Origin: Dysgonomonas hofstadii
GTDB lineage: Bacteria; Bacteroidota; Bacteroidia; Bacteroidales; Dysgonomonadaceae
NCBI RefSeq assembly: GCF_014196915.1
Contig: NZ_JACIEP010000011.1
Span: 87,544 to 151,543 of the forward strand
Reading direction: 5' to 3'
Length of the DNA stretch: 64,000 nt
Part shown: in pieces, positions 1,571-49,004 of the stretch
Layout of the letters: the number at the start of each line of letters is the position of its first letter
How positions within the stretch are numbered: position 1 is the first letter of the stretch
The notes under the pieces: generated by a model
The model's database searches: none
What the model was told of the DNA's origin: nothing
Seen by the model: only the letters and a program-made list of their open reading frames with translations
Made by a program: the position numbers and the translations under genes

Positions 1571-2110
1571 CTGATTAATGCCAATCAGTAGTTGAAATTA
1601 TGATTGTAATGAATAAATGTTCGTTTCTTTTCTACTACGTGCAATCGAAGATTGCTTGTGTTCCTTTTGCCCAAAGCCACAAAAGGAACCAAAAACGCTT
1701 TGGTGGCTCATCCTCCGTGCGACCCGTTACAGGCTCACGGGCTAAATGGAAAGATTGTCCTGTGGACGCTTTCCATTTCACGCCCCTTTCGCCTGACGGG
1801 TGCCCCGCACTACGGCTTAATGCCACCGGGCGAAGCCACCTCAAGGTAGGGTAATTCCCTGTCGTGCGTCAGCCTTCCGTGCATAGGTTCCTACGACGGG
1901 CACCTGTCCGGTGAAGACGGCGTGAAACCAAATATTGTCTGAGCCGCAGGCGAGTTTATTTGGTTTAGCCGGCAAGCCGTTGACAGGTCGGCGGGGAACC
2001 AAGCACTAGCCTTTTGTTTCGTTTTGGGCAATGCCAAAATGAAAAACAAACCCGAAGGGCGCGTTAGTAAAAACGAACATTTAAATCTAACTGCTGATTC
2101 GCATTATTAA
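1571..2110. repeat. GC-rich structured non-coding element with nested inverted repeats
   Basis: This roughly 500-base stretch fills the gap between two convergent genes and is visibly richer in G and C than its flanks. It is bounded by a perfect 12-base inverted repeat (1615-1626 AAATGTTCGTTT and 2071-2082). An imperfect inverted repeat continues outside it (about 1571-1594 against 2087-2110). Inside are further complementary pairs: 1641-1646/1650-1655, 1661-1669/1680-1688, 1667-1675/2023-2031, a 10-base pair at 1744-1753/1769-1778 and a 10-base pair at 1925-1934/1957-1966. Short open frames on both strands have no recognisable protein content. It could be a non-autonomous mobile repeat or a large structured RNA; from memory, related CAAAAGGAACC-type sequences recur in Bacteroidota genomes, but I could not check this. 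Confidence 0.6.
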
Positions 2111-48491: not shown

Positions 48492-48496
48492 TAATG

Positions 48497-48567
48497 TGTT
48501 TTTCATAGTATTAGATTTAAGGTTAACAATGAAGATTGGTTGTCGTGATGACAACCTTTTCTTTTTT
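48497..48567 (+). ncRNA. Candidate small RNA or terminated leader
   Basis: About 70 bases run from the predicted start point of the promoter to a Rho-independent terminator: GGTTGTC (48538-48544), loop GTGAT, GACAACC (48550-48556), then T-rich 48557-48567. No convincing reading frame exists in it; a short one begins at ATG 48529 but runs through the terminator. It could be a stand-alone small RNA or an attenuated leader of the glycan genes 430 bases downstream. I have a memory of similar units in Bacteroidales genomes but cannot check it. Confidence 0.6.
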
Positions 48568-49004
48568 ATAGTGATTATACAAATATATAATTGGCCATAG
48601 TATAGTCATACAATTGTCACCATAGGCTAATATAATACCTTTCTCAGAGCCAACCAACTCTCACATATAGTGATTTTGTAGCTAAGTATGCCGTGGATTT
48701 AATTAGAATGATCTTACTATTGAACGGGACATAAGAGAACTTCTAACATCTTAATTATTACAGGTCTTTAGAATATTAAGATAATAGAAAATATATAAAA
48801 GGAATAAAAATTAAATAGAATTTAAATGTGATTATTTATTATTTTATTAGCTTTGTTCCCTGAGACGGATAAAATAGACATTCTTACCAAATTACATTAA
48901 TAATCGGTTAACTAAACCTAATTGTAGTTTCATTGTTATACAATGGAGTTATAAGTAATTTGTGTTTTTTTTGTAGAAGAGAAGGCAAAATATAAGATTT
49001 ATGT
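48568..49004 (+). other. Long AT-rich non-coding leader before the glycan-export genes
   Basis: These 437 bases hold no open frame of note. The only recognisable signal is a -7-like box TAGCTTTG at 48848-48855, about 150 bases before the ATPase start; no clear -33 goes with it. The stretch is visibly richer in A and T than the gene before it. It may be a long untranslated leader, as found upstream of surface-glycan genes in Bacteroides, or the remains of a lost gene such as the export permease. Confidence 0.4.

Follow-up and report, generated by a model that had tools for sequence, protein, structure and literature searches.

What is the GC-rich stretch of roughly 500 bases, full of nested inverted repeats, that separates two convergent genes of Dysgonomonas hofstadii? 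The initial annotation of the window (the whole 64,000-nt stretch of DNA analysed here, from contig NZ_JACIEP010000011.1) offered two answers, a non-autonomous transposon-like repeat or a large structured RNA, and took the region to be one folded unit. On balance, we think it probable that window positions 1579–2103 are a MITE-like transposable element built from two head-to-head folding units of about 200 nt, likely moved in trans by a putative transposase, and that the units have been selected for folding as DNA.

The element and its copies

The element is 525 bp long and is bounded by imperfect terminal inverted repeats, TGCSAATCAGTAGTT (left, TGCCAATCAGTAGTT; right, as its reverse complement, TGCGAATCAGCAGTT). 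Its upstream neighbour is a GH97 glycoside hydrolase gene, assigned with Pfam and ending at 1566, and its downstream neighbour is a minus-strand ORF of 179 aa at 2167–2706 for which Pfam returned no family, an arrangement that agrees with the convergent genes first described. In 250-base windows, GC content rises to 0.54–0.58 inside the element versus 0.37–0.44 before and 0.38–0.40 after it, and the ORFs of at least 60 aa inside it measure 65–84 aa, none of them long; both the deviating composition and the absence of coding sense were thus correctly recognized. The perfect 12-base ends reported at 1615–1626/2071–2082 are present and one base longer (1614–1626/2071–2083, 13 nt, 100% complementary), and the nested internal pairs were recovered, including 1667–1684/2014–2031 (78% complementary) and 1776–1805/1898–1927 (80%). 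Since the outer imperfect arms reach 1579 and 2103, with direct repeats just outside, the interval originally singled out (1571–2110) is almost exactly the element plus its target duplication (Table 1). The RNA minimum free energy of 1572–2108 is -225.6 kcal/mol (z -11.3 on the plus strand, z -7.4 on the minus strand), and 1579–2103 folded as single-stranded DNA gives z -8.6 on the plus strand; none of 100 shuffles folded as well in any of these three tests.

Table 1. Features of the 525-bp element and its flanks, in window coordinates
Feature	Position	Strand	Basis or remark
Left target-site duplication, TGATTAA	1572–1578		6/7 identical to 2104–2110; consensus TNANTNA over 26 copies
Left arm, type A: terminal inverted repeat TGCCAATCAGTAGTT and subterminal part ending TAAATGTTCGTTT	1579–1626	+	
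Left folding unit, antisense	1627–1826	-	Iterated HMM match, E 2e-39
Long hairpin H1 of left unit	1708–1817	-	Match to covariance model R1, E 1.2e-18
Central spacer separating the two head-to-head units	1827–1870		Position between both unit matches
Right folding unit, sense: H1, H2 with loop GGCAATGCC, H3	1871–2075	+	HMM, E 7e-57
R1 match, right unit	1887–2001	+	E 1.1e-23
H1 apical motif, CTGTYTGAGC/GNA/GCGAGTT			Right unit has TTGTCTGAGCCGCAGGCGAGTT, first base T for C
Right arm, type B: AAACGAACATTTA... to terminal inverted repeat AACTGCTGATTCGCA	2071–2103	-	
Right target-site duplication, TTATTAA	2104–2110		

A BLAST search of the element's own genome gave 78 matches, from which 44 loci, of a larger number existing, were picked for examination. 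A 21-nt apical motif, allowed up to three mismatches, also occurs 44 times in this genome versus 0 times for the reversed pattern. Relatives of the element were found in 20 of the 41 genomes searched, namely 18 of the 25 from Dysgonomonas itself and two, with weak matches (E 1e-4), in other families. The end pattern was present in 12 of the 25 genus genomes; its reversed control matched once in all.

When 43 of the own loci were scanned for ends, 26 showed both ends 300–800 bp apart inside the mismatch limit. The 7-mers flanking these 26 copies agree at a mean of 5.96 of seven positions versus 4.57 with shuffled partners (maximum 5.31; 0 of 10,000 permutations as high), identity being 7/7 in seven copies, 6/7 in 13, 5/7 in four and 4/7 in two, and exact 7/7 duplications also occur in other genomes and species. 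Bases immediately beyond the 7-mers match in 16 and 19 of the 26 copies, so that a duplication of 9 bp in place of 7 is possible. With terminal inverted repeats and flanking 7-mers so far above the shuffled level, the element is MITE-like, occurring in many copies with 7-bp target duplications and no long ORF, and the transposon-like alternative of the initial annotation is upheld. As both ends are not shown by 17 of the 43 loci, part of the family is decayed or moves otherwise.

The 44 loci have no fixed gene context: neighbouring genes are divergent at 16, tandem at 20 (opposed to the gene direction in 13, along it in 7) and convergent at 8. According to a simple ORF caller, with ORFs shorter than 130 aa over the element ignored, 41 of the 44 loci overlap no called gene, and the remaining three overlap ORFs of 131, 131 and 265 aa.

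Two inverted units, covariation and exchange

An iterated HMM of the right half recovers the left half of the same element on the opposite strand. The body of the element consists of two homologous units of about 200 nt placed head to head; each unit forms three hairpins, and a pseudoknot often involves one of these. R1, a covariance model of the long hairpin, found 78 units in the 44 own loci, 34 of which hold two units and 10 of which hold one; the order is minus-then-plus in all 34 two-unit loci. Across the whole window, R1 finds only the two units of this element. The notion of one folded unit thus stands as far as a single pair of enclosing arms is concerned, but inside the arms there are two inverted homologous units.

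Covariation of the paired arms, proposed as a check when the region was first described, is strong. In alignment A1, which contains 50 of the 65 representatives selected among 154 distinct full-length units, 34 of the 41 predicted pairs carry double changes. Evaluated against the named structure, A1 has 95.0% of its cells paired versus 76.1% after shuffling, double-changed cells number 406 versus 122.1, and the covariation score is 0.555 versus 0.202, with none of 500 shuffles as high; these permutation figures are not tree-corrected, and the copies of the unit are related. Sliding the partners along A1 left 37–52% paired. A decayed gene or a chance palindrome, the first of which had been named as the fate of a region with no other copies and no covariation, has nothing in its favour beyond the absence of a long ORF; it is refuted by the 44 examined copies and by the covariation, and we give it practically no weight.

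Unpaired features of the unit are conserved as well. The internal loop of H1, CTGTTTGAGC/GCGAGTT, is maintained, and in a survey of 187 unique units the triloop between GAGCC and GGCGAG was GNA in 40 of the 42 units of such form (GCA in 21, GAA in 11, GTA in 7 and GGA in 1; the other two have ACA). In many units, moreover, the H2 loop pairs with the sequence directly preceding H2, forming a pseudoknot. Tested genus-wide, at least five bases pair in this manner in 60 of 116 cases versus 27.3 when permuted (never more than 42 across 1000 permutations); roughly one unit in two has no pseudoknot at this length, including the window's own right unit type, with 3 bases.

The arms are of two types, a long A and a short B, and the core occurs in both orientations between them. 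Scored by the left unit, 24 own elements comprise nine of A-core-B, nine of B-core-A and three of B-core-B, and three more with one arm unassigned. The three bases at the arm/core junction of one side are complementary to those of the other side in 13 of 22 elements (0 of 10,000 permutations as good), one of the 22 being from another genome and the whole set showing about four variants only. Whole hairpins have also been swapped as modules between halves and between copies. Recombination or conversion between the two inverted units would explain both the flipped cores and the swapped hairpins, and this is how we are inclined to read them.

Several copies depart from the usual plan. A solo palindrome consists of two A-type arms without a core, with flanks that match at only 3/7 positions, and a search of the plasmid collection with solo arms returned four matches at chance level only (E 0.2–0.8). 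A composite element of 899 bp (L148, 1094–1992) carries apparently foreign sequence between A and B ends and has flanks that match at 4/7 only. Four own copies (L016, L020, L022 and L025) are without the usual arms, and three of these end in a short GGTCN...NGACC, complementary within each copy.

Folding as DNA or RNA, and the presumed mobilizing protein

The unit could also be a non-coding structured RNA hitch-hiking on a mobile element, with each unit read outward from the centre. Along with the strong covariation, the internal loop and the recurrent pseudoknot are typical of functional RNAs. Four terminator-like hairpins were found around the element versus 1.0 expected, three of them inside it on the plus strand. 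With G-U pairs allowed, folding is better for the unit strand than for its antisense (-48.0 versus -26.4), and the G-T:A-C count for A1 is 84:15 (254:18 for RNase P), as RNA also predicts; these two results make a single-strand preference possible. To set against this, helices were defined without G-U, and G-T and A-C mismatches were counted, an excess of G-T being expected of folded RNA. The excess in the units is slight, at 27:14 in A1, 15:11 in A2 and 22:18 in A3 (21 distant plus 21 genus units), and at 8:5 and 9:4 for own copies alone in helices common to both strands. RNase P from the same order, treated by the same method, gave 97:7 (30 sequences, from 30 of the 39 genomes with a match), a ratio of 14 versus 1.2–1.9 for the units. 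G-T is, of course, the better mismatch in single-stranded DNA too. Since most of the RNase P-like G-U excess is missing from the units, it may be concluded with moderate confidence that they fold at the DNA level and not as RNA. GNA loops, for their part, give exceptionally stable DNA minihairpins, according to Yoshizawa et al. (1997), as cited in PMC7432603 and PMC6479982.

Other observations also disfavour RNA. Rfam, at the gathering score, has no family matching the unit; at E ≤10 the window region yields just below-cut-off matches, the best with E 0.1, and at E ≤0.5 four viral contigs (see below) have no match at the unit. The units are opposed in every two-unit locus, with no fixed orientation to genes, and promoter-like matches to the sigma-70 consensus, the one promoter type covered, are at chance level and lie outside the element (2 versus 1.4 expected). 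We therefore regard a hitch-hiking RNA as rather unlikely, although the least unlikely of the alternatives, and the large structured RNA of the initial annotation is not supported as such and is probably wrong. Next in likelihood, and quite unlikely in our judgement, is an ordinary MITE in which no function is under selection and mutational processes alone, namely template switching together with gene conversion from one inverted half to the other, keep the hairpins intact. Such correction is expected to leave compensatory states with few wobble intermediates, and the flipping cores, the hairpins swapped between halves and copies, and the few junction variants, complementary within a copy in 13 of 22, all fit with it. 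Palindrome repair would not maintain unpaired features, however, and these recur beyond the genus: the internal loop is one, a CTTGAT/ATCAAG or CTTGAC/GTCAAG pseudoknot (CTTGAY/RTCAAG), present in 11 of 17 distant hairpins, is another, and there are viral equivalents. Single units without a detected partner also speak against this explanation.

In the mechanism that we favour, selection on DNA folding is combined with movement in trans. A putative transposase would recognize the element ends and move the element. Selection has probably acted on the ability of each unit, comprising the long hairpin with its conserved internal loop, the often-pseudoknotted hairpin and the third hairpin, to fold as single-stranded or cruciform DNA, and the folded unit would most likely be the recognition or replication structure used by a mobile-element protein.

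As to the identity of that protein, no transposase lay between well-matched ends in 30 and 40 stretches around ends, and the sampled loci of the three families searched (DDE_Tnp_1, Transposase_mut and Y1_Tnp) held no autonomous parent with the same ends. There were no paired ends at 30 loci of DDE_Tnp_1 (of 73 matches; five loci had single weak end matches) or at any of the 13 loci of Transposase_mut, all of them in relatives, a family with no match in the own genome. Of eight ORFs situated between ends, seven with weak or mispaired ends, Pfam placed six in ordinary gene families; one matched nothing. The eighth, a 175-aa ORF beside a 228-bp element (G003; L237, 687–1211, minus strand), has transposase helix-turn-helix matches below the curated cut-offs.

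Y1_Tnp deserves separate mention, since one alternative is that the elements are repeats of REP/BIME type, mobilized by a Y1 transposase of the IS200-like kind (RAYT). Intergenic inverted hairpin pairs do resemble BIMEs, and Y1_Tnp occurs in 10 of the 25 genus genomes, with two matches in the own genome. Four genomes, however, bear the element without any Y1_Tnp (G005, G007, G012 and G019, with 18, 11, 6 and 30 element matches, respectively), and no end within two mismatches was found at 20 Y1 loci (of 28 matches). Target duplications, which are not a known feature of Y1 transposition, also count against it. Given the misfit in distribution and the lack of ends, the Y1 transposase was rejected as the mover, and we consider a REP/BIME origin very improbable.

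Comparison with known systems brings out what is distinctive here. The element shares with bacterial MITEs its short length, lack of a long ORF, terminal inverted repeats, A+T-rich target duplications, mostly intergenic location and many copies. Unlike MITEs, its interior consists of two inverted folding units that are also found in other families, it has two arm types with a core in either orientation, and no parent transposon was found in the sampled loci. Foldback and Mutator-like elements have long inverted repeats. The likeness to these (such as Tm1, PMC3169594) extends to inverted repeats of about 200 bp per side and to duplications of 7, perhaps 9, bp, but each repeat of our element folds into several covarying hairpins, and the Transposase_mut results given above separate it from Mutator-like elements. 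REP/BIME repeats with RAYT (GTAG/CGTC-tagged REPs, PMC3733652) likewise form inverted hairpin pairs, are mostly intergenic and are amplified within a genome; they are palindromes of 20–40 bp, in contrast to units of about 200 nt with three hairpins in an element with target duplications, and the Y1 transposase distribution does not match that of the element.

The structure of integron attC sites is conserved more than their sequence in a DNA hairpin, and in this respect they resemble the present unit. To our knowledge, origins, attC sites and REP-type sites aside, long-term selection has been recognized for few secondary structures of DNA. STAXI is similar in being a repeated pseudoknot structure for which action as single-stranded DNA was considered possible by its authors (Weinberg et al. 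2010; PMC2864571). In that paper, the UUCG tetraloops of STAXI are taken to favour RNA; the GNA loops and small wobble excess of the present unit provide an argument of the same kind in the opposite direction. STAXI (RF01728 in the table of that paper) has no match in the window. No published description of the element itself was found among the titles and abstract openings surveyed, which represent few of the subscription journals.

If the proposed reading is correct, the family would be an extensive natural collection in which DNA hairpins covary and DNA pseudoknots probably form, and it would offer a handle on the protein that reads the folded units. It would also account for an abundant, apparently unnamed intergenic repeat of the genus that RNA-motif searches could misread as non-coding RNA. 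Counting G-T versus A-C mismatches with RNase P as a control is a simple way of telling DNA folding from RNA folding. Two other comparisons were dropped. FopS sRNA (RF04319), which lies at window 48496–48568 on the plus strand (80.9 bits) with matches in all 25 genus genomes, is highly conserved (18 distinct among 30 sequences) and was discarded as a wobble control. A comparison of folding energy between strands of the whole element (mean difference -0.65 kcal/mol, 18 of 31 negative) was discarded because the unit is present in both directions in each element.

The unit beyond the genus

Within the order, R1 has matches at E ≤1e-4 in 15 of the 295 genomes, which belong to 11 of the 183 genera. 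Two of these genomes, from other genera of the same family, have at least 12 matches each, and one of the two has the same ends (L332, L344). At most of the distant loci fetched, the same ends are lacking. Across the phylum, a second model, R2, has matches in six of the 395 genomes: the own genome and five from one other family in the class, in which head-to-head pairs are again seen (G654, G385), as is a tandem triplet at L372 (G374) whose units repeat about every 293 bp. The unit is thus wider than the transposable element carrying it here and is presumably older. Elsewhere, L331 and L345 (G237) have three units about 800 bp apart, one of which is approximately 0.9 kb from the C-terminal portion of a transposase of the IS256 type (Transposase_mut).

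The unit may also extend to phages. The apical motif was the sole criterion for selecting viral contigs, in sets of 12 and 4, which gave 17 sites in 16 contigs. The hairpin loop downstream of the motif pairs with at least four bases of the preceding sequence in 12 of 14 testable sites versus 7.7 expected by permutation (frequency 0.005); in contigs that hold the motif by choice, this downstream pseudoknot is the one real test, and the permutation is weakened by shared loops. The pseudoknot takes several versions (CTTGAT, CTTGAA, TGTGC, TCGCC and TTCGCC), and the mean hairpin score is 21.4 downstream versus 12.3 upstream. R2 scores on the viral units range from E 2.6e-7 down to chance. Two of the contigs, L417 and L430, encode major head proteins, that of L417 being of tailed-phage type, and L431 has a portal or head-tail adaptor match. 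GC content is 0.58–0.61 in L429–L431, and a 9-mer that we take to be the Pasteurellaceae-type uptake signal occurs eight times in L417, twice in L418, four times in L419 and five times in L426. Not all of these viral contigs look like Bacteroidota, and units are possibly present in phages of other hosts.

These findings allow a wider proposal, which we put forward tentatively: that the unit is an undescribed folding DNA module, composed of a long hairpin with internal loop CTGTYTGAGC/GCGAGTT and a GNA cap followed by a DNA pseudoknot, which has spread between bacterial phyla and phages and has been built as inverted pairs into the ends of transposable elements. Its spread across phyla is a lead and not a result. 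The plasmid collection held no match for the element, and searches with distant units gave no match for two in plasmids, for one in phages and for one in E. coli.

Some viral loci bear individual mention. In L426, an sRNA-Xcc1 (RF02221) match at 555–640 lies 3.3 kb from the apical motif and was taken as unrelated. Microviruses are single-stranded DNA phages, and one microvirus contig with replication initiation and head proteins (L428) contains a 22-nt apical motif; it was rejected as a unit, as the outer stem is unpaired and no pseudoknot hairpin comes after it. Another microvirus, from an unverified record (MT135430.1; L195, 1501–1543), has an intergenic 45-nt piece of the H2 hairpin that is 93% identical, with a possible third hairpin after it. 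Finally, a viral contig of 10.9 kb (L420) has three unit matches.
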